From the NCBI GenBank assembly GCA_025458865.1, contig JALORP010000035.1, forward strand, positions 1-56,911: a stretch of 56,911 bases of DNA. Direction: 5' to 3'. The number at the start of each line of letters is the position of its first letter. Within the stretch, counting starts at the first letter, position 1. This document shows positions 11,395-54,812 of this stretch, piece after piece. Below the pieces are notes generated by a model that was given only the letters and a program-made list of their open reading frames with translations, was not told where the DNA came from and made no database searches. The position numbers and the translations under genes are program-made. Origin of the DNA: Steroidobacteraceae bacterium (lineage in GTDB: Bacteria > Pseudomonadota > Gammaproteobacteria > Steroidobacterales > Steroidobacteraceae).

Positions 11395-11413
11395 GATAAT
11401 GAGAATGATTAGC
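11395..11413 (+). promoter_or_regulatory. Fur box upstream of bfd-bfr
   Basis: GATAATGAGAATGATTAGC matches the 19-bp Fur consensus GATAATGATAATCATTATC at 16 of 19 positions. It lies 46 bp before the bfd start and should repress the bfd-bfr pair when iron is plentiful, or otherwise make it iron-responsive. Confidence 0.85.
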
Positions 11414-11458
11414 ATTTATACTGATGTCGCCTTCGAATGGGATTGCCAACCTACCGCC

Positions 11459-11650: not shown

Positions 11651-11702
11651 CCACGGCCGCAAGGCCGCTTCGAACTTTTCCCTGTCGCCACGGAGGCCCC
11701 CG

Positions 11703-21328: not shown

Positions 21329-23509
21329 TCAGAACCGCATCGTGAACCCGCCCTGCACCAGCCGCGGGCTGCCCGGGACCAGGCCGCGGGTCATGTCCAC
21401 GACGTAGTCCTCGTCGGCCATGTTCTTGACCGTGGCGTAGAGGTCGAGCTTTTCGGTCAGGTACAGGTTCACGGTCGCGTTCCAGACGAGGTGGTCTTCG
21501 ATCAGGCCGCGCTGGCCGTTGGCCGTGACCGGCACCGTGTTGAGGTCGTCGGTGAACATCTCGTCGGTGTAGACGCCCTCGACCTGGACGCGCCACTGGC
21601 CGCCGGCGAGGCCGAGCGTCAGGCTGCCGGTGTTCTCGGCGGCATAGGGCAGGCGGTTGCCGGTGACGCTCACCGAGGGATTCACCGACGAGAACCGCGT
21701 GCCTCGGTACTCGGCGTCGGCGAGGTAGGTCCACGCGAAGCGGACGTAGCCGGCGAGGCCGTTGTCGAAGGGGTAGTCGGCCTCGGCAAGCGCCTCGAGG
21801 CCCTGGTGCAGCGTCTCGCCGGCGCTGGTCAGGGTCGCGCCCGAGCCGCCGGCGACGCTCGCCGGCACGATCTGGTTCTCGAAGTCCATGCGGAAGGCGG
21901 TGAGCTCGAGCGACACGCCGGCCCAGGGCTCGGCGCGCACGCCGAGCTCGTAGTTCCACGAGAGCTCCGCGTCGAGGTCCACGCTGCCGCCGGTCGGCGT
22001 GATGATGTCCTCCACGCGCGGTGGCGCGAAGCCGCGGTGCGCGCCGGCGAAGACGTTCACGGTGTCGGTGGCCTGCCAGACGGCGCCGATGCCGGGGATC
22101 CACTCGTCCAGGTCGGTGGTGCCGCGCGTGCCGTTCAGGTAGTTCACGCGCTCGTAGTCGATCTGCTCGTAGCGGATGCCGGGGGTGACGGTGAAGTCGC
22201 CCCTGGTGAACGAGACCTGCACGAAGCCCGAAACGGCGTCCGTGTAGCGATCCTGGTCCTCGCGGATGCCGCCGTTGACGCCGGTGCCGGGCGTGCGCGC
22301 GGTCGGCGTGTCGCCGTTCACCTGCAGGCGGTACTGCTCCTCCTCGTGGTAGCGCAGGCCGGTGGAGACCTCGGTGTCGAGGCCCAGCCAGTTGCCGCGG
22401 ACGTTGAGCCGCGGCTCGATGCCATAGGTCTTGTACTGGCGCAGGCGACCCTCGTTGCCGCAGGTGGTGTTCAGGTTCGCCATGCCGCCGCAGGCGGGGT
22501 CGGAGGCGTCGTTCGGGCGCTGGCCCGAGTTCGAGGACTGCCGCCACCAGTCGCGGTTGAAGTAGCTGTAGTAGAGCGACGTCGTCAGCTCCACCTGCGA
22601 CGACGGCGTCCACGCGTGCGTGAGCGACGTGCCCCAGCGGTAGAGGTCGAAGTCGTCGTTCACGAAGGGGTTCTGGCGCAGGTCTTCCTCGTACTCGGCG
22701 AGCGTCAGCCCCGAGTAGGTGATGTCGGAATCCTCCAGGAGGTAGCTGCCCTTCAGCGTCAGCGCGTGCTGCTCGTTGATGGAGTACGTGAGCTTGCCGC
22801 TGACGTCCGTCAGGTCCAGGTTGATGTTGTCGCGCGAGCCCTGCGACTCCTTCTTGGTCGCGGAGAGCAGCCAGCCGGCGGCGCCGACCGTGTCGCCGAC
22901 GTCGCCGTGGATCTCGCGGAAGTCGCGGTTGCCGCCGGAGACGGTCAGCCGCCCCGAGAGGTCCTCCGGCGGACGGGGCGTGATGTAGTTGATCACGCCG
23001 CCGATGGTCTGCGGGCCGAAGGCAACCTGGCCGGCGCCCTTCAGCACTTCGATGCGCTCGAAGCGCTCCACCGGCGGGTGATAGTAGGTGGCGTTGTCGC
23101 CATAGGGCGCGTAGGCCAGCGGCACGCCGTCCTCGAGGAGCAGGACCTTGGTGGACCGCGTCGGGTTCAGGCCGCGGATGCCGATGTTCGGCCGCAGGCC
23201 CATGCCCTCCTCGTCGCGCGCGTAGACGCCCGGCACCTTGCGCAGGGCCTCGTTGATGGTGAACACGCGCGCGTTCTCGAGCAGGTCGCGGTCGAGGATC
23301 TCGCCGGAGCCGGCGATCTTGTCGAGGTTCTCGCGGGTGCCGATGACCACCACCTCGGCCAGCGTGCGGGCGGCGCCGAGCTCGGGAGAGGTAGTGGTGG
23401 CGGCGGCGTCGTCGGCGACCGGGGCGGGATCCGGGCTGTCGGCCCGGGCGGCGGAGGTGGCGAGGATCGTGCAGACGGCAGCGGCGAGCAGCCGGCGATG
23501 AGTGGACAT
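21329..23509 (-). CDS. TonB-dependent outer-membrane receptor, FecA-like
   Basis: 726-residue outer-membrane receptor for a ferric chelate. Signal peptide at about residues 1-24; a TonB-box-like LAEVVVIG segment; plug domain from about residue 55 to 190 (GIRGLNPTRSTKVLLLEDG, RIEVLKGAGQVAFGPQTIGG); then a 22-strand barrel ending in a terminal aromatic (FTMRF) as the family requires. Overall layout resembles FecA/ferric-dicitrate receptors, but no fecR/fecI genes are adjacent. The ATG at 23509 has GGGGAG 4 nt upstream. A Fur box lies 51 bp upstream of the start. Confidence 0.9.
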   Translation of the reverse strand: MSTHRRLLAAAVCTILATSAARADSPDPAPVADDAAATTTSPELGAARTLAEVVVIGTRENLDKIAGSGEILDRDLLENARVFTINEALRKVPGVYARDEEGMGLRPNIGIRGLNPTRSTKVLLLEDGVPLAYAPYGDNATYYHPPVERFERIEVLKGAGQVAFGPQTIGGVINYITPRPPEDLSGRLTVSGGNRDFREIHGDVGDTVGAAGWLLSATKKESQGSRDNINLDLTDVSGKLTYSINEQHALTLKGSYLLEDSDITYSGLTLAEYEEDLRQNPFVNDDFDLYRWGTSLTHAWTPSSQVELTTSLYYSYFNRDWWRQSSNSGQRPNDASDPACGGMANLNTTCGNEGRLRQYKTYGIEPRLNVRGNWLGLDTEVSTGLRYHEEEQYRLQVNGDTPTARTPGTGVNGGIREDQDRYTDAVSGFVQVSFTRGDFTVTPGIRYEQIDYERVNYLNGTRGTTDLDEWIPGIGAVWQATDTVNVFAGAHRGFAPPRVEDIITPTGGSVDLDAELSWNYELGVRAEPWAGVSLELTAFRMDFENQIVPASVAGGSGATLTSAGETLHQGLEALAEADYPFDNGLAGYVRFAWTYLADAEYRGTRFSSVNPSVSVTGNRLPYAAENTGSLTLGLAGGQWRVQVEGVYTDEMFTDDLNTVPVTANGQRGLIEDHLVWNATVNLYLTEKLDLYATVKNMADEDYVVDMTRGLVPGSPRLVQGGFTMRF

Positions 23510-23559
23510 ACAACTCCCCAAGGTTGGCGGCGGCAGGATAGGGCCGTCGGCCTTGGGAA

Positions 23560-23778: not shown

Positions 23779-26700
23779 ATGTCGACCTCCAGCGCAACGT
23801 CGCGTCCTGCGGCGGGGGAATCTGTTGCGGTCACGCCGGGGCCGGCACTCGCCAACCCCCTGCGCACGCGCGCCGCCTGGGACTCCGCGCGCGAGGCCTG
23901 TCGCGGCGATCCCGGCGCCTACCACGGCGCCATCGCGAAGCGCGAGATCCACTGGTTCGACGCCTCGCTCGGCGCCCAGGGCGCGTGGATCCGCTACGAC
24001 GATGCCGCGCGCGCGTGGACCGGCTTCGATGCCGCCAGCGGGGCCGCGGTCCGCGCGCCCTACGCCGAGCCGCACGAGCCCTGGGCGCGGGCCTTCGACG
24101 ATTCCGAGGCGCCGTTCTACCGCTGGTTCGGCGGCGGGCTCACCAACGCCTGCTTCAACGAGATCGACCGCCACGTGCTCGCCGGCCACGGCGAGGAGGC
24201 GGCGATCATCTTCGAGGGCGACCGCTGGGACCAGTCGCTCGACGGCGGCCGCGGCGGGCCGGTCGTGTCCTACGCCATCAGTCGCAAGCGCCTGCTGCTC
24301 GAGACGGCGAAGTGCGCGCTGGCGCTGCGGCAGCTCGGCCTCGCCGCGGGCGACCGCGTCGCGATCAACATGCCGAACATCCCCGAGCAGGTGTTCTGGA
24401 CGGAAGCCTGCAAGCGCCTCGGCATCGTCTACACGCCGGTGTTCGGCGGCTTCTCCGACAAGACGCTCTCGGACCGCATCCACGACGCGGGCGCGCGCAT
24501 CGTGATCACCGCCGACGGTGGCCTGCGCAACGCGCAGGTCGTGCCGTTCAAGGAGGTCTACACCGACCCGGCGCTCGACGGCTACGTGCCGGCCGAGGTC
24601 GCCGTCGCGCGCGTCGCGGCAGCGCTCGAGGACCTGGCGCGCGAGGGCCTCGAGCTCCCGGCCGGCGCGGCGAACGACATCCTCGCGGCCGCGCGCAAGG
24701 CGGTCGCGGGCGAGATCACCCTCGACCGCTCCGACGTCATGCGCGGCATCGGCGGCGCGCTCGAGGCAATCCCGGGCCTGCCGCCGGCGGATGCGAGCCG
24801 CATCCGCACGGCCATCGCCTCCGCGCTCGTCACCACGCCGCCGCGCGTGGAGGCGGTCGTCGTCGTGCGCCACACCGGCCAGGCCGACCTGTCCTGGCGC
24901 GTCGAGCGCGACCGCTGGGCCCACGAGCTGACCGACGCCGCGCTCGCCGAAATCCACGCGCGCGCCCGCGCGGCCGGCGCGCGGCTGCCGGAGGCGGACA
25001 GCGCCACGGCCCGGGCGCTTGCCGACGACCTGCTCGCCCTGCCGGATGCCGAGTTCGTGGCGGCCGTCTGGGCGAGCTGCCCGCCGGTGCCGCTCGATGC
25101 CGAGTTCCCCCTCTTCTTCATCTACACCTCCGGCTCCACCGGCAAGCCCAAGGGTGTGGTGCACGTGCACGGCGGCTACGTCGCCGGCGTGGCGCACTCG
25201 ATGAAGGTCGCCTTCGACGCCATGGCCGGCGACGTGATCTACGTGGTCGCCGACCCGGGCTGGATCACCGGCCAGAGCTACATGATCTGCGGCGCGCTCG
25301 CCGCGCGCGTGACCACCGTCATCGCCGAGGGCGCGCCCGTGTTCCCGAGCGCGGGGCGCTTCGCGAGCATCATCGAGCGCTACGGCGTCAAGATCTTCAA
25401 GGCCGGCGTGACCTTCCTCAAGACCGTCATGACCGACCCGCAGAACGTCGCCGACGTGCGCGAGTACTCGATGGCTTCGCTGCGCGTCGCGACCTTCTGC
25501 GCCGAGCCGACATCGCCCGCCGTGCAGCATTTCGGCATGGAACTCGTCACGCCCTGGTACATCAACTCCTACTGGGCGACCGAGCACGGCGGCATCGTCT
25601 GGACGCACTTCTTCGGCAACGGCGATTTCCCGCTGCGGGCCGATGCGCACACCTACCCGCTGCCCTGGGTGCTCGGCGAGGTGTGGGTGCCCGACAGCGA
25701 GCCCGACGCCTCCGGCCGCGTCGTGCCGCGCGTCGCCGCGGTGGGCGAGAAGGGCGAGATCGTCATCGAGTCGCCGTATCCCTACCTCTGCCGCACCATC
25801 TGGGGCGACGCGGCGAGCTTCCGCGTCGACGGCAGCCGCGTCGCGGCCGGCTGGAAGGGCGATTTCGAGCGCTACGCGAAGACCTACTGGACCCGCTGGG
25901 AGGGCCGGCTCGCCTACACGCAGGGCGACTTCGCGGTGAAGTACGACGACGGCGGCTACTCGCTGCACGGCCGCTCCGACGACGTGATCAACGTCTCCGG
26001 CCACCGCCTCGGCACCGAGGAGATCGAAGGCGCGATCCTCAGGGACAAGCAGCTCTACCCCGACTCGCCCGTGGGCAACGTGGTGGTCGTCGGCGCGCCG
26101 CACGCGCAGAAGGGCCTCACGCCGCTCGCCTTCGTGAAGCCCGCGCCGGGCAGGCGCCTGACGAGCGACGACCGCCGCCGCCTCATCGAGCTGGTGCGCC
26201 AGGAGAAGGGCGCGACCGCGGTGCCCGAGGACTTCATCGAGGTCGCGCAGTTCCCCGAGACTCGCAGCGGCAAGTACATGCGCCGCATGGTGCGCGCGCT
26301 GGTCGAGGGCGCCGACGTCGGCGACACCTCGACGCTCAGGAACCCCGAGTCCATCCCGCAGCTCGAGAAGGCCATCGCCGAATGGCTGGCCCGCCAGAAG
26401 GTCGCCGACGAGCAGCGCATCTTCGAGGACTACCGCTACTTCCGCATCCAGTACCACGCGCTGGCGCCGGGGCAGCGCGTCGCGCTCGTCACCGTCAGCA
26501 ACCCGCCGGTCAACGCGCTGAACGAGCGCTCCCTCGACGAGCTCAACATCGTCGTGGACCACCTCGCGCGGCGCGAGGACGTGAAGGCGGTGGTCTTCAC
26601 CGGCGCGGGCTCGGCCTCGTTCGTCGCCGGCGCGGACATCCGCCAGCTGCTCGAGGACGTCCACAGCCTCGACGAGGCGCTGCCGCTGCCGAACAACGCG

Positions 26701-29319
26701 CACCTCGCCTTCCGCAAGATCGAGGCGATGGACAAGCCGGCGATCGCGGCGATCAACGGCGTGGCCCTCGGCGGCGGCATGGAGTTCGCGATGGCCTGCC
26801 ACCTGCGCCTCGCCGAGCCCACCGCCACCTTCGGCCAGCCGGAAGTACGCCTGAACCTCCTGCCGGGCTACGGCGGCACGCAGCGCCTGCCGCGGCTGCT
26901 GGCGGCCGCGGGCCATTCGCAGCCGCTGGTGCGGGCGCTCGAGTTCGTGCTGGGAGGCCGGACTTACACCGCCGACGAGGTGCAGGCCGACGGCCTGCTG
27001 CACGGCGTGGCGACCGACGCCGAGGACGTGGTCTCCCTGGCGCTGCGGCTCGCCGCCGACTACGTCCGCCACCCGAAGGGCGACGGCGTGGTCGCGCAGG
27101 GTTTCGCCGCGCGCCGGGCGCTCGCCGCCGCGTGGCGCGGGCCGGGCGAGGGCGCCTTCGAGGCGGCGCTCGCCGATCCCGAGGCGAAGCGCCTGCTCGC
27201 GCAGGCGGAGCAGGTCGGTCGCGCGGCGACCGCCGCGCGCATCCTCGATGCGCTGAGGACCGGCTGGACGCAGGGCGTGGCCGCGGGCCTCGAGCGCGAG
27301 GCGCGCCTGTTCGCCGAGGCGATCGTCGACCCGGACGGCGGCAAGGCCGGCATCCAGGCCTTCTTCGACAAGCGGAGCGCGCCGCTGCCGACGCGCCGGC
27401 GCGAGGCTCTCGCGCCGGCCGCGCTCGAGGCAAAGGGCGAGCTGCTGCCGGTCGGCGCGCCTTTCTGGCCGGGCTTCACGCCCATCCCGAAGTGGCAGTA
27501 CGGGCACGCGGTGGTGCGCCACCCGGCGACCGGCGCGCCGGACCACGGCCTGCCGAAGGACGTCGAGCGCGAGATCGTGGTGCCGGTGGACGAGCCGGGC
27601 CCGAACGAGGCGCTCGTCTACGTCCTCACCTCCGAGGTCAACTTCAACGACATCTGGGCGATCACGGGCATCCCGGTCTCGCCCTTCGACAACCACGACC
27701 TCGACTGGCAGGTGACGGGCTCCGGCGGCGCGGGCCTCGTCGCGGCGCTCGGCAGCGAGCTGAAGCGCGAGGGCCGGCTCAGGCTCGGCGACCTCGTCAC
27801 CATCTACAGCGGCCAGAGCGACCTGCTCTCGCCCTACGCCGGCCAGGACCCGATGTACGCCGGCTTCAACATCCAGGGCTACCAGACCGATACCGGCAGC
27901 CACCAGCAGTTCCTGCGCGTGCAGGGCCCGCAGCTGCACCCGCTGCCGCCCGACCTCACGCTCGAGCAGGCCGGCTCCTACGTGCTGAACCTCGGCACCA
28001 TCACCCGCGCGCTGTTCACCACGCTCGCGATCGAGCCGCGGCGCACGATCTTCGTCGAGGGCGCGGCGACCGGCACGGGCCTCGAGGCGCTGAAGGGCGC
28101 GGCGAAGAGCGGGCTTGCCGCGGTCGGCCTCGTCTCGAGCCCGGCGCGCGCCGAATTCGTCAAGACCCAGGGCGCGGTCGGCGCGATCGACCGCAAGGAT
28201 CCGCGCTGGGCGAAGGCCTTCACGCCGGTCCCCGCCGGTCCCGAGGCCATCGCCGCCTGGGTGAAGGCCGGCGAGCCCATCCTCGAGGCCTTCCGGGCGC
28301 AGGCGGGCGGCCGGCTCGCCGACTACGCGGTGTCGCACGCGGGCCAGGAGTCCTTCCCGCGTTCCTTCCAGCTTCTCGCCGAGGGCGGAGCGCTCACCTT
28401 CTACGGCGCCACGAGCGGCTACTGGTTCTCCTTCGTCGGCAAGCCCGGCAGCGCATCGCCCGAGGAGATGCTGCGCCGCGCGCGGCTGACGGGCGGCGAG
28501 GCGGTGCTGCTCTACTACGGCGTGGGCGAGGCCGGACGCGGCGGTGGCGCGGGCGGCCTGCTCGACCCGGTGGGACTCGAGGCCATCGAGGCCGTGCGCG
28601 CCATGGGCGCGCGGCTCGTCGTGGCCACGGCCACCGATGCGCAGCGCGAGTTCGTCCAGTCGCTCGGCTTCGGCGACGCCGTGCGCGGCGTGGTCTCGCT
28701 CGAGGACCTCAAGCGCCGCGAGGGCGCGGACTTCGAGTGGCCGGATGCACTGCCCGCGATGCCGGACGCGAAGAGCGAGACCGAGGCCTTCAAGGAGGCC
28801 GTGCGCCGCTACCAGGACCGGACGATGAAGCCCTTCGGCGGCGCGATCGGCCGCTACCTGCGCTCGGCGGACAACCCGCGCGGGTACCCTGACCTCGTCA
28901 TCGAGCGCGCCGGCCACGACGCGCTCGCCGCGAGCACCTCGCTCGTGAAACCACACACCGGCCGGGTCGTGTACTGCGAGGATCTCGAGGGCCGGCGCTA
29001 CACGTTCTACGCGCCGCAGGTGTGGATGCGACAGCGCCGGATCCTCATGCCGACCGCCACCATCAAGGGCACGCACCTGTGCAACGCCTTCGAGGTGACG
29101 CGCATGAACGACATGATCGCGGCGGGCCAGCTCGAGGTCTCGCCGCCGACGGTCGTGCCGTGGAAGGAGCTGCCGGCCGCGCACCAGTCCATGTGGGACA
29201 ACACCCACGCCGGCGCCAACTACGTGCTGAACCACGCGCTGCCCCGCACGGGGCTCAAGAGCCGTGACGAGCTTTTCCAGGAATGGGCCGCCCGCAGCGA
29301 CGGAGAAGGGACGCCATGA
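23779..29319 (+). CDS. pcs: Propionyl-CoA synthase, trifunctional (3-hydroxypropionate pathway)
   Basis: 1846-residue fusion enzyme converting 3-hydroxypropionate, CoA, ATP and NADPH to propionyl-CoA. Domain 1 (about 40-880) is an acyl-CoA synthetase with YTSGSTGKPKG at 449-459 and the adenylation Lys832 in TRSGKYMRR. Domain 2 (about 887-1150) is an enoyl-CoA hydratase with both catalytic glutamates, Glu1002 in GGGMEFAMAC and Glu1022 in GQPEVRLNLLPG. Domain 3 (about 1230-1846) is a medium-chain reductase (acryloyl-CoA reductase) with GAATGTGLEA near 1430. Length and order match Chloroflexus propionyl-CoA synthase (about 1820 aa), in which the acryloyl-CoA intermediate is kept inside the enzyme. 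RBS CGGAG precedes the ATG. It overlaps mcr by 4 bp, so the two are co-translated. The reading frame is intact. Confidence 0.95.
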   Translation: MSTSSATSRPAAGESVAVTPGPALANPLRTRAAWDSAREACRGDPGAYHGAIAKREIHWFDASLGAQGAWIRYDDAARAWTGFDAASGAAVRAPYAEPHEPWARAFDDSEAPFYRWFGGGLTNACFNEIDRHVLAGHGEEAAIIFEGDRWDQSLDGGRGGPVVSYAISRKRLLLETAKCALALRQLGLAAGDRVAINMPNIPEQVFWTEACKRLGIVYTPVFGGFSDKTLSDRIHDAGARIVITADGGLRNAQVVPFKEVYTDPALDGYVPAEVAVARVAAALEDLAREGLELPAGAANDILAAARKAVAGEITLDRSDVMRGIGGALEAIPGLPPADASRIRTAIASALVTTPPRVEAVVVVRHTGQADLSWRVERDRWAHELTDAALAEIHARARAAGARLPEADSATARALADDLLALPDAEFVAAVWASCPPVPLDAEFPLFFIYTSGSTGKPKGVVHVHGGYVAGVAHSMKVAFDAMAGDVIYVVADPGWITGQSYMICGALAARVTTVIAEGAPVFPSAGRFASIIERYGVKIFKAGVTFLKTVMTDPQNVADVREYSMASLRVATFCAEPTSPAVQHFGMELVTPWYINSYWATEHGGIVWTHFFGNGDFPLRADAHTYPLPWVLGEVWVPDSEPDASGRVVPRVAAVGEKGEIVIESPYPYLCRTIWGDAASFRVDGSRVAAGWKGDFERYAKTYWTRWEGRLAYTQGDFAVKYDDGGYSLHGRSDDVINVSGHRLGTEEIEGAILRDKQLYPDSPVGNVVVVGAPHAQKGLTPLAFVKPAPGRRLTSDDRRRLIELVRQEKGATAVPEDFIEVAQFPETRSGKYMRRMVRALVEGADVGDTSTLRNPESIPQLEKAIAEWLARQKVADEQRIFEDYRYFRIQYHALAPGQRVALVTVSNPPVNALNERSLDELNIVVDHLARREDVKAVVFTGAGSASFVAGADIRQLLEDVHSLDEALPLPNNAHLAFRKIEAMDKPAIAAINGVALGGGMEFAMACHLRLAEPTATFGQPEVRLNLLPGYGGTQRLPRLLAAAGHSQPLVRALEFVLGGRTYTADEVQADGLLHGVATDAEDVVSLALRLAADYVRHPKGDGVVAQGFAARRALAAAWRGPGEGAFEAALADPEAKRLLAQAEQVGRAATAARILDALRTGWTQGVAAGLEREARLFAEAIVDPDGGKAGIQAFFDKRSAPLPTRRREALAPAALEAKGELLPVGAPFWPGFTPIPKWQYGHAVVRHPATGAPDHGLPKDVEREIVVPVDEPGPNEALVYVLTSEVNFNDIWAITGIPVSPFDNHDLDWQVTGSGGAGLVAALGSELKREGRLRLGDLVTIYSGQSDLLSPYAGQDPMYAGFNIQGYQTDTGSHQQFLRVQGPQLHPLPPDLTLEQAGSYVLNLGTITRALFTTLAIEPRRTIFVEGAATGTGLEALKGAAKSGLAAVGLVSSPARAEFVKTQGAVGAIDRKDPRWAKAFTPVPAGPEAIAAWVKAGEPILEAFRAQAGGRLADYAVSHAGQESFPRSFQLLAEGGALTFYGATSGYWFSFVGKPGSASPEEMLRRARLTGGEAVLLYYGVGEAGRGGGAGGLLDPVGLEAIEAVRAMGARLVVATATDAQREFVQSLGFGDAVRGVVSLEDLKRREGADFEWPDALPAMPDAKSETEAFKEAVRRYQDRTMKPFGGAIGRYLRSADNPRGYPDLVIERAGHDALAASTSLVKPHTGRVVYCEDLEGRRYTFYAPQVWMRQRRILMPTATIKGTHLCNAFEVTRMNDMIAAGQLEVSPPTVVPWKELPAAHQSMWDNTHAGANYVLNHALPRTGLKSRDELFQEWAARSDGEGTP

Positions 29320-32300
29320 CGACGCAGAAGAAGACGCGCGCGAAGTCGACCACGCAGCCCGGCCGGCTGGCCGGCAAGGTGGCCATGATCACGGGTGCCG
29401 GAGGCAACTTCGGCGAGACGCTGGTGCGACGCTACCTCGAGGAGGGCGCGCACGTCGTCATGGTGGGGCGCAACCGCGGCAAGCTCGAGGCCACGCTCGA
29501 ACGCGTCCGCGGCCAGGTGGGCAAGGCGGCCGACGCCGCCTTCATCCTGCCCTTCGACGCCGCCGATCCCGGCCAGGCGCGCCTCGGCATCGAGACCGTC
29601 ATCGAGAAGTACGGCAGGCTCGACGTGCTGCTCAACAACGCCGGCTCGACCGGCCCCAAGACGCCGCTCGGCCAGGCGCCCCTCACGCGCGAGGAGGTCG
29701 AGGCCCTGCGCGCCGCGGGCGCGAACGACACCGAGACCGTGCGCGAGGCCGTCTCGAACCTCTTCGGCCTCACCTGGAACATGTGCCGCGCCGCTGCGCC
29801 GCACATGAAGCCGGGCTCGAGCATCATCAACGTCTCGACCATCTTCTCGCGCACCCGCTACTACGGCCGCGCGCCCTACGTGGTGCCGAAGGCGGCCCTG
29901 AACACGTTCTCGCGCCACCTCGCGCTGCAGCTTGGCCCGAAGGGCATCCGCGTCAACGTCATCTACCCGGGGCCCATCGAGAGCGAGCGCATCCACAACG
30001 TGTTCGCGGCGATGGACAAGCTCAAGAAGGTCGAGCACGGCACCACCGCGAACGACTTCCTCGGCACCATGGCGCTGTCCATCGAGAAGCCCGACGGCAC
30101 GGTCGCGCCCTCCTATCCGACGATCGAAGACGTTGCGGCGGCGGCGGTGTTCCTCGGCAGCGACGAGTCCCGGGCCTTCGCCGCCCAGAACTTCGAGGTC
30201 ACGAACGGCATGCAGGTGTGGCAGGAGTCGCGCTCCACCTTCACCGCCCGGCCCGAGCTTCGCACCCTCGACGGGAGCGGCGTGACCGTGCTGGTCGCGG
30301 CCGGCGACCAGGTCGCCGATGCGCTCGAGATCGCCCGCGTGCAGGCGGCCACCGGCGCGCACGTGCTGCTCGGCCTCGGCTCGGAGGAGGGTGTGCGCGC
30401 CGCGCTGGCGGCGCTCTCCCGCGACGGCCACGACGCCAACATCGAGCCGGTGCTGTTCGACCGCAGCCGCGCCGGCACGCTCGCCGACGTGCTCTCCGCC
30501 TCGCGCGCCCAGGCCTCGCGGTCCCACGGGCCGCTGCACGGCGCCGTCGTGCTTCCGGCCTACGGGGCCTACCGCTTCCGCGAGCCGCTGTGCGAGGTGA
30601 GCGACACCGACGTCGACAACTTCCTCACGACCGAGCTGTGCGGCGCGATCTCCGTCGCCCGCGAGCTGACCCGCTTCTGGCAGTCCACGGCGCCGAGGAA
30701 TTCCGCGCCGCGCGCGGTGTTCGTGAGCAACGGCGACGACGGCGCCGGCAACGTCTACGCCGACATCCTGCGCGCCGCGATCGAGGAGCTGATCCGCATC
30801 TGGCGCGACGAGAGCGAGGTGCAGGTGCGCGGGGGCGACCGCGCCGCCACCGAGTGGTCCAACCAGATCCTGCGCTGGTCGAACCCCGAGGACGAGTCGC
30901 TGCCCTTCGCGGCGGGCCAGGCGGCGCGCCTGCTGTTCCTCAAGCGGCGCATCCCGCAGATATGCCTGTACGTGCCCGTGAGCATCGCCGAGGCCACCGG
31001 CTCGCAGCGTTCCGTGCTCGGCTGGATCGAGTCCCTGATGGGGCTGCACCTCGGCAAGTGCGTGCTGATCACCGGCGGCTCGGCCGGCATCGGCGGCCAG
31101 CTGGCGCGGCTCCTGGCCATCGGCGGCGCGAAGGTCATGATGACGGCGCGAGGCACCGAGGCGCTCGAGCAGCAGCGCGCGGCCATCATCCGCGAGCTGG
31201 AGGGCATCGGCTACTACCAGCCGCAGGACCGCGTGCACATCCTCGGTGACATCGACGTCGGGGACGAGCGGTCGCTGCGGCGCGCGCTCGAGGCGACCTA
31301 CGCCGCGTTCGGTCGCGTGGACTACCTGATCAACAACGCGGGCGTCGCCGGCGCCGAGCAGATGGTCGTGGACATGGAGGCCGACGACTGGCGCGCGACG
31401 CTCGAGGCCAACCTCAACTCGAACTACTCGCTGATCGAGAAGGTCGTGCCGCGGATGAAGGCGCAGGGCTCGGGCTACATCCTGAACGTCAGCTCCTACT
31501 TCGGCGGCGAGAAGTACATCGCCGTGCCGTACCCGAACCGCGCGGACTACGCGGTCTCCAAGGCCGGCCAGCGCGCGCTCGTGGAGAACCTCGCCCGCTT
31601 CGTCGGCCCGGAGATCCAGATCAACGCCATCGCGCCGGGGCCGGTCGAGGGCCAGCGGCTCAAGGGCAAGGGCGGCAAGGCTGGGCTGTTCGACCGCCGC
31701 GCGAAGCTGATCGCCAACAACAAGCGGCTGAACCAGCTGCACGGCGCGATCATGAAGTCGCTCGAGGCCGGCGCCGCGATGGACGACGTGTTCGACTCGC
31801 TCGCCGCGAACGACGTGGGCCTGCTCGCGCACTCGACCGCCGCGCCCGAGCCGCTCCGGAAGCTCGCCGGGCGCATCGTCGCCGAGGGCGGCGGCGACGA
31901 CGAAGAGCGCGACTTCTCCTGCCAGCGCTTCCTGATGACGCGCGCGATGGCCCTGAAGCTCGTCGCGCGGCTCAGGAACGGCTGCATGTTCGCCGGCGAG
32001 CCGGAGCACGCGCGCGCGATCGCCTGGGTCGCGTCGCTGCCCGAGCCGCCGGAACCCTTCCTCGACCCCGCCGGCTGGCAGGCCGAGGCCGAGAAGATCC
32101 GCAAGGGCGTGCTCGGCATGCTGCACCTGAAGCGCATGCCGACCGAGACCGACGTCGCGCTCGCCACCGTGTTCTTCATGGCGGACCGCGCGATCTCCTG
32201 CACCAGGAACGGACCATCACCGAGCGCGAGCTCTTCGGTTCCGCCAAGCAGGAGCGCGTGGACCGCATGGAGGGCGAGACCGTCTGGATCATCGGCGAGC

Positions 32301-32992
32301 ACATGGCCGAGCCGATCGCCGCCGCCGCGCGGCTGTTCCTGGCCGAGGCGCACGTCGGCAGCATCATGATGCTCACGCGCAGCGCCGGGGCGGGCGAGGC
32401 GATCAAGGCGGCGCTCGGCCGCGCGCTCGGCCACGATCGCGTGAACTACATGACGGTGGACGGCGACCTCGAGGCCGGCCTCGACGCCGCCTACCGCGCC
32501 GGCGGCAAGCCGGCCGCGGTGGTCTCGATGCCGTTTGCGCCCATCCCGCCGGCGCTCTTCGGCATCGACGGCCGCGATCACCTCGACGCGACCGGCTTCG
32601 CCGACCTCGTCGAGGCCAACCTCACGCACCACTTCCGCGTGGCGCGCAAGGTGTCGCTGTTCAAGGGCACGCGCCTCATCCTGGTCTCGCCCGACGTCCC
32701 GGTCGGCGGCACGCTCGCGCAATTCGCCATGGCGAACTTCGTGAAGACCACGCTGCACGCCTTCACGGCGACGCTCGGCGTGGAGAACGAGCGCCTCTAT
32801 GCCGGCGTGCCGGTGAACCAGGTGAACCTCACCCGGCGGATGCGCAGCGAGGAGCCGCGCGACGCCGCCGAGCAGGCCGAGGAATACCGCCGCTTCGCGA
32901 ACGCCGTGCTGCTCGCCGCCGCGCCCATCGTCGAGGCGGAGGAGAGCCGCTACCGCTCCCGCATCTACCGGGGCCTCGCGATCACCGTCTGA
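29316..32992 (+). CDS. mcr: Malonyl-CoA reductase, bifunctional (frameshifted in this sequence)
   Basis: NADPH-dependent enzyme reducing malonyl-CoA through malonate semialdehyde to 3-hydroxypropionate. Two SDR halves are visible: N-half with TGAGGNFG near residue 26 and Tyr188-x3-Lys192; C-half with TGGSAGIG at 586-593 and Tyr745-x3-Lys749 (PNRADYAVSKAG). In Chloroflexus the C-half makes the semialdehyde and the N-half reduces it. The reading frame breaks near 32195: up to ADRAIS it is in one frame, and from LHQERTITERELFG it continues in another to the stop at 32992, ending RIYRGLAITV as in the family. By comparison with relatives about 28 nt, coding for a GxTFxxSGG-type segment, are missing. 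Uncorrected, translation stops at 32369 (1017 aa). Corrected length about 1234 aa. Starts by ATGA overlap with pcs. Confidence 0.92.
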
Positions 32993-33025
32993 GGCGCCCG
33001 CCCGGGACCCTGCCTGCCAGTCGGA

Positions 33026-33069
33026 TACGCGGCCCGATTTCCCCAGATTGGTGGAAATCGGGCCGCGTA
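33026..33069 (+). terminator. Long perfect hairpin after mcr
   Basis: 17-bp perfect inverted repeat (TACGCGGCCCGATTTCC at 33026-33042 and its complement at 33053-33069) with a 10-nt loop, starting 34 bp after the mcr stop. There is no T run after it, so it is either a hairpin that protects the pcs-mcr mRNA 3' end, a factor-assisted terminator, or a mobile palindromic repeat. Confidence 0.55.
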
Positions 33070-33193
33070 CCCGATTTGACCCCCCCCGTTCGCATGGGTC
33101 CCGGGAACCATTCCCGCCGGCGGCAGTCCGACCCGTACTTGCGCGAAGCAAGTCCTGAATCATTATTCACATATTTTCCTTCCTGGAGGATGC

Positions 33194-33757
33194 ATGACCC
33201 GCCTTTCGCTGCTCGCGGCGACCGCCCTGATGGCCGTGTCCGCCCCGGTTTTCGCGGACAACCACGGCGCCGCCGTGGTCAACAACAACGTGACCCTGGC
33301 CGAGGTCGAGGCCGCCCAGAAGGCCTGGGGCGCCGCCCTGGTGCAGATCGCGACCGACTTCAAGGCCGGCGGCCGCGACAAGGCCACCGCCACGGCGTCG
33401 GCCGTGCTCGACGCGGCCTACGGCTACGCCCACGGCGCGGTGCTGTTCAAGCCGACGCTCACCTCGGGCGACCAGACCTTCCGCATCACCCGTGAAGGCG
33501 CGCTCGCGTACTTCGTCGGCGGCAACCCGAAGTTTCCCAAGGACGGCGGCTTCGCGCTGAACGGCTGGAGCGCCTACGAGATCAAGAACGCCGCCGTCTA
33601 CATCAACGGCGACATGGCGATCACCACGGGCAATGTGATCCTGACCAACGACAAGGGCCAGAAGACCACGGTGGACAAGACCTGGGGCTTCCGCAAGGGC
33701 GACGACGGCAAGCTGCGCATCGTCCTGCACCACTCCTCGCTGCCCTACGGCGGCTGA
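33194..33757 (+). CDS. Secreted SnoaL/DUF4440-like protein
   Basis: 187-residue exported protein. The N-terminus (MTRLSLLAATALMAVSA, cut near VFADN) is a clear signal peptide; the rest reads like an NTF2/SnoaL-type fold with conserved segments VEAAQKAWG, VLFKPT, AYFVGG, and a closing LRIVLHHSSLPY. Proteins with the same closing motif are common in marine proteobacteria and are sometimes mislabelled phosphoribosyl-AMP cyclohydrolase; none of the HisI metal motifs is present here. CTGGAGGA lies just upstream of the ATG. The AT-rich leader contains two small palindromes, at 33137-33153 and 33156-33169. It sits alone between mcr and hoxF1; its role there is unknown. Confidence 0.75.
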   Translation: MTRLSLLAATALMAVSAPVFADNHGAAVVNNNVTLAEVEAAQKAWGAALVQIATDFKAGGRDKATATASAVLDAAYGYAHGAVLFKPTLTSGDQTFRITREGALAYFVGGNPKFPKDGGFALNGWSAYEIKNAAVYINGDMAITTGNVILTNDKGQKTTVDKTWGFRKGDDGKLRIVLHHSSLPYGG

Positions 33758-33775
33758 GGCCGGGCCCGTGACGCG

Positions 33776-33808
33776 TGGCCCGGCGGACGCCGGGCCATGC
33801 GGGGTTTT
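33776..33808 (+). terminator. Terminator-like hairpin before the hox operon
   Basis: Near-perfect 10-bp stem TGGCCCGGCG/CGCCGGGCCA (33776-33797) followed after a short GC stretch by GGTTTTCC. It lies 19 bp after the SnoaL-like gene and 56 bp before the hoxF1 start, so it probably separates the two transcription units. Confidence 0.5.
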
Positions 33809-33852
33809 CCGCGATTGCCCGCCGCGGCGGGCGACCGCAGGCTAGCGGGGCC

Positions 33853-35691
33853 ATGGAAGGCCCCGCCGCCCCATCCGCCACGCTGCCCCTCGACGACGCT
33901 GCCGCGACGGCCCTCGAGCGCGCGCTCGCACGCTGGGGCCGCGAGCCCGTGCGGCTCCTGCAGGTGCTGCGCGAGGTGCAGGAGGCGCTCGGCTGGCTGC
34001 CGCCGCCGGCGCTGACCGCGGTCTCCCGCGCCCTCGGGGTGCCGCTCGCCCAGGTGCGCGGCGTAGTGGCCTTCTATTCCTTCCTCCACGCCGAGCCGCG
34101 CGGCGAGTATCGCCTGCTTTTCTCCGACGACGTGCCTGACCGCATGGCCGGCTCGGGCCAGCGGCTCGCCGAGATGTGCGAGCGCCTCTGGCTCGAGCCC
34201 GGCAAGCTCTCCGAAGACGGCCTCGTCAGCGTCGAGCGCACGCCGGCGCTGGGGCTGTGCGACCAGGCGCCGGCGCTGCTGGTGAACGGCCGGCCGGTCA
34301 CGCGGCTCACCGCGGCGCGCGCCGGGCAGGTCTGCGAGCTCGTCCTGGCGCGCGTGCCGCTCGAGGCGTGGCCGGCGGACCTCTTCGAGGTCGAGGACCA
34401 CGTCCGCCGCCGCGACGTGCTGCTTGGCGACGATACCCGCCCGGGAGAGGCACTCGACGCCGCGTTCGCGCGCGGCGACGCCGCCGGCCTCGGGCCGCAG
34501 TCGCTGCTCGACGAGATCAAGGCTGCGCGCCTGCTCGGCCGCGGCGGCGCGGGCTTCACCACGGGCGTGAAGTGGGAGAGCTGCAGCCGCCAGCCCGTCA
34601 CGCCGCGCGTCGTGGTGTGCAATGCCGACGAGGGCGAACCCGGCACGTTCAAGGACCGCCTGCTGCTGCGCCGCCACTTCGACCTCGTCGTCGAGGGCAT
34701 GACCCTCGCCGCCTGGGCCATCGGCGCCACGCTCGGCTTCGTCTACCTGCGCGGCGAGTACCGCTGGCTGCTCGACTCGCTCGAGGCCACGCTGGCGCGC
34801 CGCCGCGAGGCGGGGCTCCTCGGCCGCTCGATCCGCGGCCGGCCCGGTTTCGACTTCGACATCGAGATCCACGTCGGTGCCGGCAGCTACGTCTGCGGCG
34901 AGGCCTCGGCGCTGGTCGAGTCGCTCGAGGGCAAGCGCGGCATCCCGAGGAACCGCCCGCCGCGCCTCGCCGAGGTCGGCTACCGGGGCCTGCCGACCAT
35001 CGTCAACAACGTCGAGAGCTACTGCGCCGCCGCGCTCATCGCGCGCCACGGCGCGGATTGGTTCAAGTCCCGCGGCACGGCGCGGTCCTCCGGCACCAAG
35101 CTGCTGTCCGTCTCCGGCGACTGCGCGCGCCCCGGCATCTACGAGTATCCCTTCGGCGTGGCCGTGCGCGAGGTGCTCGCCGATTGCGGGGGGGAGGGCG
35201 CCATCGCGGTGCAGGCCGGCGGCCCCTCCGGTGCCTGCCTCGGCCAGGACGAGTTCGGGCGGCGCGTCGCCTTCGAGGACATCGAGACCGGCGGCGCGCT
35301 CGTCGTCTTCGGCCCCGAGCGCGACATGTTCGAGGTGGCGCGCCACTACGCGCACTTCTTCGCCGAGGAGAGCTGCGGCTTCTGCACGCCCTGCCGCGTC
35401 GGCACCTCGCTCCTGAAGACGCTGGTGGACAAGGTCGCCGAGGGCAAGGGCACGCCGCGCGACCTTGCCGAGATCGAGCGGCTCGGCGGCGTGCTTCGCA
35501 CCGCGAGCCACTGCGGCCTCGGCGAGTCGGCGCCGCGGCCGCTCATCGACACGCTGCGCCGCTTCCGTCCCGCCTGGGAGCGCCGCCTCGGCTCGTCCTC
35601 GATGGAACCCTCCTTCGATCTCGATGGCGCGCTCGCCCGCGCGCGGCGGATGACCGGGCGGGACGACGAGGGGGCGCACCTGCCGCCGTAG
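33853..35691 (+). CDS. hoxF: NAD-reducing hydrogenase diaphorase subunit HoxF, copy 1
   Basis: 612-residue fusion of a NuoE-like (about 15-170) and a NuoF-like (about 190-600) domain, the NAD(H)-binding diaphorase moiety of bidirectional [NiFe]-hydrogenases. FMN/NADH motifs GRGGAGFTTG, NADEGEPGTFKDR and GAGSYVCGEASAL are intact, as is the [4Fe-4S] set SCGFCTPCRVG plus HCGLG. In the NuoE-like part the usual SCTGMC cysteine pair reads PALGLC: Cys132 is replaced by Ala, keeping only Cys136, so the [2Fe-2S] site there is probably lost. A close paralogue follows directly. The start at 33853 (MEGPAAPSATLP) is the first ATG before homologous sequence. First gene of the hox operon. Confidence 0.9.
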   Translation: MEGPAAPSATLPLDDAAATALERALARWGREPVRLLQVLREVQEALGWLPPPALTAVSRALGVPLAQVRGVVAFYSFLHAEPRGEYRLLFSDDVPDRMAGSGQRLAEMCERLWLEPGKLSEDGLVSVERTPALGLCDQAPALLVNGRPVTRLTAARAGQVCELVLARVPLEAWPADLFEVEDHVRRRDVLLGDDTRPGEALDAAFARGDAAGLGPQSLLDEIKAARLLGRGGAGFTTGVKWESCSRQPVTPRVVVCNADEGEPGTFKDRLLLRRHFDLVVEGMTLAAWAIGATLGFVYLRGEYRWLLDSLEATLARRREAGLLGRSIRGRPGFDFDIEIHVGAGSYVCGEASALVESLEGKRGIPRNRPPRLAEVGYRGLPTIVNNVESYCAAALIARHGADWFKSRGTARSSGTKLLSVSGDCARPGIYEYPFGVAVREVLADCGGEGAIAVQAGGPSGACLGQDEFGRRVAFEDIETGGALVVFGPERDMFEVARHYAHFFAEESCGFCTPCRVGTSLLKTLVDKVAEGKGTPRDLAEIERLGGVLRTASHCGLGESAPRPLIDTLRRFRPAWERRLGSSSMEPSFDLDGALARARRMTGRDDEGAHLPP

Positions 35692-35830
35692 GGGTCGCGG
35701 CTCTCGCAGCGGCCCGGCCGGCAACGGTCGCGAAAGCAGGATGGGATTTTCCGGTATTTCGGGCAGGGTCCCCCGGGTGCAGGCTGTGTGGGCCGGGCGG
35801 CCGGCCAATGGGCAGCCCAGCAAGGACGCC

Positions 35831-37677
35831 GTGTCAGAGTCCCCCGCCGACCTCGAACCGAAGATCCGCCGCATCGTCACGCGCTGGGGCCACGAGCCCA
35901 CCGCGCTGCTGCAGGTGCTGCGCGAGGTTCAGGACGACCTTGGCTGGCTGCCGAAGCCGGCGCTATCGCTCGTGGCGCGCCTGCTGCGCCAGCCCTACTC
36001 GCGGGTCGCGGGCGTGGCGAGCTACTACGCGTTCCTCTGCACCGAGCCTAGGGGCCTTTACCGCGTCCTCTTCTCCGACAACGTCACCGACCGCATGGCC
36101 GGCAGCGAGCGGCTGCTCGAGTCGCTCTGCCACCGCCTGTGGGTCGAGCCCGGCAAGGTCTCCGAGGACGGCCTCGTCTTCGTCGACCGAAGCTCCTGCA
36201 CGGGGATGTGCGACCAGGGCCCCGCGATGCTCGTGAACGGCCGCGCCATCCCGCGCCTCGACGAGGCCCGCATCGAGCGCATCTTCGAACTCATCACCAG
36301 CCGCGTCCCGGTGCCCGACTGGCCGTCGGGACTGTTCGTCGTCGAGAACAACGTCCAGCGCGCCGACGTCCTGCTCGGCCATGGCCTCGAGCCCGGCGAT
36401 CCCATTCGCGCCGCGCTGCAGCGCGGCACCCGCGGCTGGTCGGAGCGGCCGGCGAACGAGCGCTCCTGGCGCGAGGCCTACGTCGGCGCGGCGCTCGGGC
36501 CCGTCGCGACGCTCGAGGAGATCAAGCGCTCGAACCTGCGCGGCCGCGGCGGCGCGGGCTTCACCACCGGCATCAAGTGGGAGGCCTGCCGCCACGCAAC
36601 GGGCACGGCCCGCTACGTGGTCTGCAACGCGGACGAGGGCGAGCCCGGCACCTTCAAGGACCGCGTGCTGCTCACGAGCCACGCCGACCTCGTCTTCGAC
36701 GGCATGACGGTCGCCGCCTACTGCGTCGGCGCGAGCCGGGGGTTCCTGTACCTGCGCGGCGAGTACCGCTACCTGCTCGAGCCGCTCGAGGCCGTCCTCG
36801 AGCGCCGGCGCCGGGACAAGCTCCTCGGCGAGGGCATCTGCAACCAGCCCGGCTTCGACTTCGACATCACGATCCACGTCGGCGCCGGCAGCTATGTCTG
36901 CGGCGAGGAGTCCGCGCTCATCGAGTCGCTCGAGGGCAAGCGCGGCGTGCCGCGCAACCGCCCGCCGTACCCGGTGACGAATGGCTACCTCGGCCAGCCG
37001 ACGATCGTGAACAACGTCGAGACCCTGGCCGCCGCGGCGCTCATCGCCGTCAGGGGCGGGGAGTGGTACCGCGGCATCGGCACGCTCAAGTCCTCCGGCA
37101 CCAAGATCCTGTCCGTGTCCGGGGACGTGGCGCGGCCCGGCCTGTACGAGTACCCGTTCGGCGTCCCGGTGCAGCAGGTGCTCGACGACGCCGGCGCGCG
37201 CGCCACGCAGGCCGTGCAGATCAGCGGCCCGTCGGGCATCTGCATCGGCTCGGCCGAGTTCGGCCGGCGCATCGCCTTCGAGGACCTGCCGACGCGAGCC
37301 GCGACATGTTCGACGTCGCGGCCGCCTACATCCGCTTCTTTGCGCACGAGAGCTGCGGCTTCTGCACGCCCTGCCGCGTGGGTACCTCCATGCTCATGCA
37401 GGCCATGGAGAAGATCCGCGCCGGCAACGGCACCCAGCACGAGCTCAACGAGATCGACCGCCTGAACAAGGTCCTGATGATGTCCGCCCACTGCGGCCTC
37501 GGCCACACCGCCTGCAACCCGATCCTCGACACGCTGAAGCGATTCCGGCCGGCCTACGAGCGCAAGCTGCGCTCGCTCGAGTTCACGCCTGCCTTCGACC
37601 TCGACGGCGCGCTCGCCCGCGCGCGGCAGATGACCGGCCGCGACGACCCCGGCGCGCACCTGGAGACCCACCCGTGA
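35831..37677 (+). CDS. hoxF: NAD-reducing hydrogenase diaphorase subunit HoxF, copy 2 (frameshifted)
   Basis: Tandem paralogue of the preceding gene. It retains SSCTGMCDQGP in the NuoE-like part and the FMN/NADH motifs GRGGAGFTTG, NADEGEPGTFKDR and GAGSYVCGEESAL. The frame breaks at about 37290-37303: RIAFEDLP is followed in the next frame by SRDMFDVAAAYIRFF and the cluster motif SCGFCTPCRVG. Aligned with copy 1, about 25 nt encoding a GGALVVFGP-type strand are missing. Read as given, the first frame stops at 37465. GTG at 35831 chosen as start (AAGGA upstream); an ATG at 35741 is possible. The repaired protein, about 623 residues, ends by overlapping hoxU (GTGA). Confidence 0.88.
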
Positions 37678-38408
37678 GCGCCCGCCCGACCTTCCTGCTC
37701 GACGGCGTCGAGGTGCCCTTCGATCCCGGCCAGTCGGTGATGCAGGCCGCGCTCGCCGCCGGCCGCCACATCCCGCACCTGTGCTACCACCCCGAGTTCA
37801 AGCCGCACGGCAGCTGCAAGGTCTGCACCGCGCGCGTCGACGGGCGGATGATGACCTCGTGCACCGTGCCGGCCGAGATGGCGACCGAGGTCGAGAGCGA
37901 CACCGAGGAGCTGAACGACCTGCGCCGCACGCTGGTGCAGATGCTCTTCGCCGAGGGCAACCACTTCTGCCCGTCCTGCGAGCAGAGCGGCAACTGCCTG
38001 CTGCAGGCGCTCGGCTACGACCTCGGCGTCATGACCGCCGGCTTCCGGCACCTGTTCCCGGACCGGCCGGTGGACGCGAGCCATCCGGAGATCCTGCTCG
38101 ACTTCAACCGCTGCATCCTCTGCGAGCTGTGCGTGCGCGCCTCGCGCGAGGTGGACGGCAAGGACGTCTTCGCGCTCGCCGGCCGCGGCATCGAGAAGCA
38201 CCTCGTGGTCAACGCCGAGTCCGGCCGCCTCGGCGACACCAACGCCGCCGCCGCTGACAAGGCCATGTCCGTCTGCCCGGTGGGCGTGATCCTGCGGAAG
38301 CGCGAGGGCTTCCACGTCCCGATCGGCGAACGGCGCTTCGACAGGTCGCCCGTCAGCGACCAGGCCAGCGACTTCGCGCCGCGCAAGCCGGAGGCGACCC
38401 GTGGCTGA
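37674..38408 (+). CDS. hoxU: NAD-reducing hydrogenase subunit HoxU (NuoG-like)
   Basis: 244-residue iron-sulfur protein linking the diaphorase and hydrogenase halves. An N-terminal plant-ferredoxin-type [2Fe-2S] site is seen as HLCYHPEFKPHGSCKVC plus a following TSC; next comes the His/Cys-ligated [4Fe-4S] site (GNHFCPSCEQSGNC), then CILCELC with a downstream CPVG for further clusters. The length matches HoxU rather than full NuoG. GTG start overlaps the hoxF2 stop (GTGA) and its end overlaps hoxY by 8 bp, so translation is coupled along the operon. Confidence 0.93.
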   Translation: MSARPTFLLDGVEVPFDPGQSVMQAALAAGRHIPHLCYHPEFKPHGSCKVCTARVDGRMMTSCTVPAEMATEVESDTEELNDLRRTLVQMLFAEGNHFCPSCEQSGNCLLQALGYDLGVMTAGFRHLFPDRPVDASHPEILLDFNRCILCELCVRASREVDGKDVFALAGRGIEKHLVVNAESGRLGDTNAAAADKAMSVCPVGVILRKREGFHVPIGERRFDRSPVSDQASDFAPRKPEATRG

Positions 38409-38952
38409 ACTCGCACGCCCGAAACTCAAGGTCGCCACCGCCTCGCTCGCCGGCTGCTTCGGCTGCCACATGTCGTTCCTCGACATCGACGAGCGGCTGT
38501 TCCCGCTGCTCGAGCGCGTGGAGTTCGACCGCTCGCCGCTCACCGACATCAAGCACTGCGGCCCCTGCGACATCGGCATCATCGAGGGCGGCGTGTGCAA
38601 CGCCGAGAACGTGCACGTGCTCCGGGAGTTCCGCGCGAACTGCAAGATCCTGGTCGCGATCGGCGCCTGCGCGGTGACCGGCGGACTGCCGGCGCAGCGC
38701 AACCACCTCGACCTCGGCCTGTGCCTGCAGGAGGTCTACCTCACCGAGCCCTCCCTCGGCCGCGGCCTCATCCCGAACGACCCCGAACTGCCGCTGCCCC
38801 TCGACAAGGTGCATCCGCTGCACGAGGTCGTGAAGGTGGACTACTTCATCCCCGGCTGCCCACCCTCGGGCGACGCCATCTGGAAGTTCCTGACCGACCT
38901 GATCGAAGGCCGCACGCCGAAGCTCGGCCACGGCCTCATCGCGTACGACTGA
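38401..38952 (+). CDS. hoxY: NAD-reducing [NiFe]-hydrogenase small subunit HoxY
   Basis: 183-residue small subunit carrying the proximal [4Fe-4S] cluster. Ligands: Cys19 and Cys22 in AGCFGCHMSF, Cys in AIGACAVTGG, and Cys in FIPGCPPSGDAIW. It lacks the Tat signal and C-terminal part of membrane-bound uptake hydrogenase small subunits, as expected for the soluble group 3d enzyme. GTG start inside hoxU; 8 bp separate it from hoxH. Confidence 0.93.
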   Translation: MAELARPKLKVATASLAGCFGCHMSFLDIDERLFPLLERVEFDRSPLTDIKHCGPCDIGIIEGGVCNAENVHVLREFRANCKILVAIGACAVTGGLPAQRNHLDLGLCLQEVYLTEPSLGRGLIPNDPELPLPLDKVHPLHEVVKVDYFIPGCPPSGDAIWKFLTDLIEGRTPKLGHGLIAYD

Positions 38953-54744: not shown

Positions 54745-54745
54745 T

Positions 54746-54794: not shown

Positions 54795-54812
54795 GTGACG
54801 GGGTTCTGTCGG

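Follow-up and report, generated by a model that had tools for sequence, protein, structure and literature searches.

The 3-hydroxypropionate bi-cycle of Chloroflexota such as Chloroflexus and Roseiflexus involves two key enzymes, propionyl-CoA synthase (Pcs) and malonyl-CoA reductase (Mcr). Genes for the same two enzymes, pcs and mcr, adjoin each other in the 56,911-nucleotide stretch of DNA from a Steroidobacteraceae bacterium analysed here (the window). Unlike in the Chloroflexota, no glyoxylate-salvage lyase was recognised in the genome to which the window belongs, and RuBisCO is present. According to the available text of PMC9802188, key enzymes of the bi-cycle likewise occur outside the Chloroflexota, in metagenome-assembled genomes of photosynthetic Burkholderiales, for which photosynthesis is predicted, and Gemmatimonadales. 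The glyoxylate-salvage genes are arranged together in those genomes, whereas none were recognised here, where a Calvin cycle is encoded. The co-presence of 3-hydroxypropionate genes and the Calvin cycle is noteworthy because phototrophic Chloroflexi have one or the other, and some neither, as reported in the accessible part of PMC5826079.

The pcs-mcr pair of the window probably provides an auxiliary, mixotrophic route of CO2 co-assimilation and a sink for reductant beside a reaction centre, enzymes of the Calvin cycle, and a hydrogenase. In this route, acetyl-CoA carboxylase would convert acetyl-CoA to malonyl-CoA, Mcr would reduce malonyl-CoA to 3-hydroxypropionate with NADPH, and Pcs would convert 3-hydroxypropionate to propionyl-CoA inside one protein, again with NADPH. 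Energy and reductant would come from light, captured by the reaction centre, and possibly from H2. A Porphyrobacter strain without a full carbon-fixation pathway has been suggested to co-assimilate CO2 in a comparable way, as far as the available text of PMC10674011 describes it. The pair is organized as follows:

23779-29319, plus strand: pcs, predicted trifunctional propionyl-CoA synthase of 1846 amino acids, intact, with an ATG start (assigned from domain order, match to Protein Data Bank (PDB) entry 6eqo, and tree)
29316-32369, plus strand: first part of mcr, covering the N-terminal short-chain dehydrogenase/reductase (SDR) half and the greater part of the C-terminal one; genuine sequence up to about residue 960, the remainder out of frame
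32196-32198, plus strand: break in mcr, a 28-nucleotide gap relative to relatives (nucleotide alignment with four of them)
32198-32992, plus strand: last part of mcr, in another frame (open reading frame 32258-32992, 244 amino acids)

The domain search divides Pcs into AMP-binding, enoyl-CoA hydratase, and zinc-type reductase domains, in this order, and keeps it within the Pcs family. Residues 33-1842 align to PDB entry 6eqo with a score of 2503 bits, in agreement with the original prediction that the 1846-residue open reading frame is a trifunctional Pcs. The entry is labelled 'Acetyl-coenzyme A synthetase'; however, the alignment of this entry with the Pcs of Erythrobacter sp. NAP1 (locus L058) spans the full length at 4190 bits, and its displayed part is free of mismatches. 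The window and NAP1 proteins are alike in domain order, and their loci in the order of pcs and mcr, but the proteins share about 62% identity and are placed separately in the tree described below. The ligase, hydratase, and reductase domains have family-typical motifs (YTSGSTGKPKG at residue 449, SGKY at 830, GGGMEFA at 998, GQPEVRL at 1019, and VEGAATGTG at 1426), and both halves of Mcr have Ser/Tyr/Lys SDR motifs. We take these residues to be catalytic; their presence in all five units had been anticipated. Pcs is thus assigned to the propionyl-CoA synthase family, with a predicted NADPH-dependent activity converting 3-hydroxypropionate to propionyl-CoA. A TonB-dependent receptor gene (21329-23521) is located divergently from pcs.

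The ATG of mcr at 29316 overlaps the pcs stop codon as ATGA. The mcr frame stops at 32369; genuine Mcr sequence ends at about 32197 and continues in the other frame to 32992, and the alignment with four relatives places the missing 28 nucleotides at a conserved motif. The first part of Mcr matches PDB entries 8hi4 and 8hjw over about 950 residues. Both entries are labelled 'Short-chain dehydrogenase/reductase SDR' in the PDB, and we take them to be malonyl-CoA reductases. Close homologues in JGI are named malonyl-CoA reductase/3-hydroxypropionate dehydrogenase, and the Mcr from a Chloroflexaceae locus (L055) matches 8hi4 and 8hjw end to end. The possibility that Mcr is an unrelated tandem SDR was therefore rejected. 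The last part of Mcr is 79-83% identical to the nearest gammaproteobacterial loci. The usual Mcr length is 1220-1277 amino acids among the homologues listed, and no uninterrupted protein of this kind is encoded in the present assembly. A restart codon that would yield a separate working C-terminal part is not supported, because mcr is a single open reading frame in all 53 relatives that show both halves. The original prediction of a complete core, with a bifunctional Mcr in one frame to 32992, is therefore borne out in part: both gene identities and the ATGA overlap stand, and the core is complete in gene content but not in reading frame, since Mcr is interrupted. The names of the Enzyme Commission (EC) classes given for both Mcr steps are NADP-linked in the legend to Fig. 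3 of PMC9802188.

Many other bacteria, including phototrophs, were already known to carry the pair. One scan returned 279 matching stretches from Gammaproteobacteria, Rhodocyclaceae, Burkholderiales, Sphingomonadales, Gemmatimonadota, Chloroflexota, and Aneurinibacillus, from which 80 loci were retained. The pair is thus widespread, and the available text of PMC9802188 describes the bi-cycle for photosynthetic Gammaproteobacteria as well as Gemmatimonadota, so the earlier statement that these enzymes are known from just a few marine photoheterotrophic proteobacteria fails. Both Mcr halves are shown in 53 of the 80 loci; mcr is upstream in the Chloroflexaceae locus. Room for mcr, defined as 3.7 kb or more of sequence after pcs, is available in 65 loci, and mcr is adjacent to pcs in the same order in 52 of them. 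The other 13 have no Mcr match in the locus, and 11 of these are Chloroflexota by title. A Rhodocyclaceae locus with a Pcs 78% identical to that of the window (L015) has no adjacent Mcr match within 10 kb on either side.

The Pcs tree, as had been proposed, sets the window protein against the Erythrobacter NAP1 and Chloroflexus homologues. It contains 79 rows, made up of the window and 78 of the 80 loci (two short ones were dropped); it was built by a quick method, and the placement of several long rows is uncertain. The window falls into a fully supported clade of 11 rows, of which nine are Pseudomonadota and one is from Gemmatimonadota. NAP1 lies outside this clade, as do the Chloroflexota, which group together in a clade of 14 rows. 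On the tree, 5 label changes are required to account for the five rows from Gemmatimonadota.

The window corresponds to positions 1-56911 of contig C87, has a GC content of 71.2%, and belongs to a 3.09-Mb draft genome of 105 contigs (G000). The genome is 87.0% complete and 0.85% contaminated, and at this completeness gene absences are weak evidence. It is likely that the contig belongs to the bin, judged by HrpB, which is encoded on the same contig. Among 26 other genomes with a match to HrpB, the four best matches are from four genomes of the same genus (60-69% identity), and there is no match in a fifth, G001. Mis-binning was rejected, as far as HrpB tells, because the same-genus matches outrank those from other members of the family. 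The genome is likely gammaproteobacterial.

Profile searches covered 13 genomes: G000, five of the same genus (66-96% complete), and seven other Mcr-positive relatives. The reaction-centre family Photo_RC was found in nine, namely all eight Mcr-positive genomes, G000 included, and G002, so that reaction-centre genes accompany Mcr in 8/8 genomes and occur in 1/5 of the same-genus Mcr-negative ones. The photosynthesis cluster of G000 includes pufL, pufM, pufC, bchY, bchB, bchP, ppsR, and acsF. The RuBisCO large chain is present in G000, G001, G004, and G005, and in none of the seven other Mcr-positive genomes. Beside the RuBisCO gene of G000 are genes for the small chain, cbbX, fructose-bisphosphatase, phosphoribulokinase, and a CbbR-like regulator that scores below the cut-off. 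The large and small chains together with cbbX presumably represent Form I. A fructose-bisphosphate aldolase gene near the RuBisCO genes, on contig C70 of the same genome (L149, 3855-4802), encodes 315 amino acids compared with 347 model positions; the product is about 32 residues short, with an inner stretch absent in frame, which is likely a further assembly gap.

The genome-wide check that had been suggested favours partial use of the cycle. In addition to RuBisCO, G000 has two short carboxyltransferase matches, which were assigned as putative AccA and AccD on the basis of size and of the half of the profile that they match. A third carboxyltransferase (504 bits) adjoins genes for an acyl-CoA dehydrogenase and a biotin carboxylase, and is presumably a methylcrotonyl-CoA carboxylase, judging by the gene order typical of the leucine pathway. 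As mutases, G000 has a fused protein of the IcmF type and, at a contig edge, a fragment similar to a 559-residue mutase of G025. Proteins over the HpcH_HpaI cut-off occur in 11 of the 13 genomes; G017, a pcs-mcr relative listed as 100% complete, is below the cut-off, and G001 has none.

Several results weigh against the proposed auxiliary role. The mcr gene is interrupted, and the closest intact Mcr among the best 120 of 946 homologues, P0002, shares 93.9% identity with the first part in the window and 95.1% with the last, which leaves no intact copy above approximately 94-95% identity. Mcr was detected at E <= 1e-100 in none of the five other same-genus genomes, which are 66-96% complete. Canonical PccB, the class scoring 676-682 bits, was not found in G000, and is present among the 13 genomes only in G005, G036, and G052; canonical methylmalonyl-CoA mutase (779-794 bits) was not found in G000 either, and is present in G005, G036, G052, and G060. 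No PrpD-type protein was found in G000 at 87% completeness, which speaks against an exit through methylcitrate; the PrpD family is present in the other 12 of the 13. In G017, there are two MmgE/PrpD-family matches, and both open reading frames tested match no NCBIfam model at 1e-15. Isocitrate lyase, recognised by a long two-part match, occurs in 10 of the 13 genomes, including all eight Mcr-positive ones, and the pair is therefore not needed as a replacement for the glyoxylate shunt, a function that was rejected.

It is highly improbable that the pair operates in a full bi-cycle as in Chloroflexus, with salvage of glyoxylate by malyl-CoA lyase and autotrophic growth. The report of this cycle in photosynthetic Gammaproteobacteria and Gemmatimonadota, cited above, speaks for it, as does the incompleteness of G000, in which an Mcl-type lyase was not recognised at 87% completeness. 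However, the only G000 protein over the HpcH_HpaI cut-off is CitE-like, with 202 bits for TIGR01588 (cut-off 443) and 78 bits for the haloarchaeal malyl-CoA lyase model (cut-off 500), and Mcr-positive G017 lacks a protein over this cut-off although it is listed as complete. Canonical PccB and methylmalonyl-CoA mutase were not found in G000, and RuBisCO with phosphoribulokinase offers another route of fixation. The partial, mixotrophic use that the original prediction favoured over a full cycle fits these data better. The pair could instead serve mainly in the uptake of organic substrates such as 3-hydroxypropionate, acrylate, or acetate, with no emphasis on the addition of CO2, as has been proposed for incomplete gene sets in Actinobacteriota in the available text of PMC9802188. 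We consider this unlikely: the use of external 3-hydroxypropionate alone would need only Pcs, whereas Mcr adjoins Pcs in most of the loci with room for it. Co-assimilation of CO2 is the reading we prefer.

Directly downstream of mcr, and new here, are a gene cluster for a soluble [NiFe]-hydrogenase (Hox) and a gene for an iota-carbonic anhydrase homologue, neither of which the original prediction mentions for this locus. The region contains the following features:

33020-33075, plus strand: strong hairpin, located after mcr and before the carbonic anhydrase gene (folding of region 33000-33110)
33194-33757, plus strand: iota-type (metal-independent) carbonic anhydrase homologue (NF047901, 238.5 bits, below the cut-off of 350; PDB 7c5x, 1.9e-79)
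33775-35691, plus strand: hoxF1, HoxEF-like diaphorase subunit of 638 amino acids, intact, with Ala377 (profile and PDB matches)
35741-37677, plus strand: hoxF2, HoxEF-like diaphorase subunit with Glu at that position; 25-nucleotide gap at about 37289, intact copy P0241 elsewhere
37674-38408, plus strand: hoxU-like diaphorase subunit (profile match)
38401-38952, plus strand: hoxY-like small hydrogenase subunit (profile match)
38961-40384, plus strand: hoxH, [NiFe] large subunit; 43-nucleotide gap at about 39164, intact copy P0121 elsewhere
40387-40839, plus strand: hydrogenase maturation protease, hoxW-like (TIGR00072, 84 bits, cut-off 47.45)

The hairpin region folds with -72 kcal/mol (z -8.6; none of 200 shuffles as good) and contains an inverted repeat of at least 15 nucleotides; a copy with two mismatches at 45008 may be due to chance, as 0.65 matches are expected. 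The hairpin likely separates two transcription units. The carbonic anhydrase homologue is predicted to hydrate CO2, and is likely exported, as its N-terminus resembles a signal peptide by eye. Its segment HHSSLPY is aligned with 7c5x, and we take HHSS to be the motif of iota-carbonic anhydrases. Among 56 relatives with 9 kb downstream of the pair, a carbonic anhydrase homologue was found in one, the NAP1 locus, with 43% identity and about 4.4 kb downstream of mcr.

The Hox gene set, comprising HoxF, HoxU, HoxY, HoxH, and the maturation protease, is present and located on one strand. The order from F through U, Y, and H to the protease is that of hoxFUYHW of Cupriavidus necator (pHG1), and the best PDB match of both HoxH and HoxF1 is 5xf9, a soluble NAD-reducing hydrogenase from Hydrogenophilus thermoluteolus. 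In contrast to both of these hydrogenases, two HoxF proteins are encoded here in tandem, one with Ala at the position of Glu341. The N-terminal Cys-pair motif of HoxH is lost with the gap and is intact in P0121, whereas the C-terminal DPCLSC is kept; we take the Cys-pair motifs to bind Ni. None of the 56 relatives has hydrogenase genes downstream of the pair. Of the 98 genomes that were queried with both Mcr and HoxH, 10 have HoxH homologues, a count that includes G000 and one weak match (33%); G000 is the only one that has both proteins, and HoxH is present in 0/7 of the other Mcr-positive genomes. A conserved coupling of the hydrogenase to pcs-mcr was not seen in the 56 loci or the 98 genomes.

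The three frame-breaking gaps, of 28 nucleotides in mcr, 25 in hoxF2, and 43 in hoxH, lie within 7 kb, and assembly error is likely the best explanation for them, because similar gaps occur at conserved places and the two that could be checked are flanked by unchanged amino-acid sequence. Both pieces of HoxH show 100% identity to the two parts of the intact 488-residue P0121 in JGI (longest contig 106,909 bases). For HoxF2, the tail shows 100% identity to the intact 641-residue P0241, encoded on a 37,368-base contig, and the first part aligns to P0241 without mismatch from residue 1 of the latter to the gap. The clustering of the gaps, together with short microhomology seen by eye at the mcr and hoxF2 junctions, speaks for the alternative that the deletions are real, and that mcr, hoxF2, and hoxH are young pseudogenes of a strain that is losing the pathway and the hydrogenase. 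This is improbable, as the deletions in hoxH and hoxF2 would have to have arisen without any neighbouring amino-acid change. The third-position GC content is still 0.97 in the last part of mcr and 0.96 in the main part of hoxH, and the putative fourth gap, in frame and located in the aldolase gene of another contig, suggests a genome-wide assembly fault. We infer that the living organism has an intact mcr. Single-motif gaps in draft genomes can pass for gene loss or be overlooked, as the gap in mcr was in the original prediction.

The best match of HoxF1 outside G000, among 147 genomes of the order, has 61% identity, and four hydrogenase loci of relatives each contain one hoxF, the product of which is nearer to HoxF2 (69-77%) than to HoxF1 (58-62%). 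Residues 341-342 of C. necator HoxF are Glu-Ser according to the pHG1 record, and Glu-Ser is present at this site in 119 of 120 HoxF2 homologues among the matches listed, with one not matched by the pattern. In HoxF1, Ala377 is aligned to Glu341 and the following Ser is kept. The variant E341A/S342R enables the C. necator hydrogenase to use NADP+ with an affinity like that for NAD+ and a four times lower turnover, as stated in the available text of PMC10127272. Because Ala377 replaces Glu at this engineered NAD-specificity position, HoxF1 is a possible candidate for an NADP+ reducer. A literature search for NuoF E183 returned no papers.

The hydrogenase might thus feed the pathway, with HoxF1 reducing NADP+ and the oxidation of H2 providing NADPH for Mcr and Pcs. 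The hox genes directly adjoin the pair on the same strand, and the substitution in HoxF1 affects a residue that is otherwise conserved and that was altered, together with Ser342, in the NADP+-accepting variant of C. necator. Nevertheless, this function is doubtful. The very stable hairpin stands between mcr and the carbonic anhydrase gene, nothing indicates co-regulation of hox with pcs-mcr, and the combination is found neither downstream of the pair in the relatives nor in any second genome of the 98. HoxF1 also lacks the Arg of the double variant and deviates at 63 of 298 highly conserved columns, compared with 118 for C. necator HoxF, and may be otherwise specialised or decaying. A wider scheme, in which an organism powered by light and hydrogen combines the Calvin cycle with the first half of the 3-hydroxypropionate bi-cycle, a natural Glu-to-Ala change in one of two HoxF copies makes part of the soluble hydrogenase an NADP+ reducer that provides Mcr and Pcs with NADPH from H2, and the carbonic anhydrase supplies bicarbonate for malonyl-CoA synthesis, would be speculative and is unlikely to hold as a whole.

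Two other features of the window were observed. An IS21-like istA/istB pair (53933-56770) lies next to a gene that contains a photolyase-type fragment (FAD_binding_7), and is possibly inserted into that gene. The open reading frame at 8954-12007 encodes 1017 amino acids with a class-V aminotransferase domain only at residues 585-915, and probably has an overlong start or represents a fusion.

Literature searches, judged by titles and abstract openings, returned no report of pcs-mcr, RuBisCO, and Hox in one gammaproteobacterium, and a search for phototrophic Steroidobacteraceae with RuBisCO returned nothing. The window places pcs-mcr in a genome with a type II reaction centre, RuBisCO and phosphoribulokinase, and a soluble hydrogenase, while RuBisCO and HoxH occur apart from Mcr in the sampled relatives. 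Should HoxF1 prove to reduce NADP+, it would represent a naturally occurring equivalent of the engineered hydrogenase variant. The gene content of this bacterium enables one to ask whether half of a CO2-fixation cycle may serve as a reductant sink or as an anaplerotic route beside the Calvin cycle.

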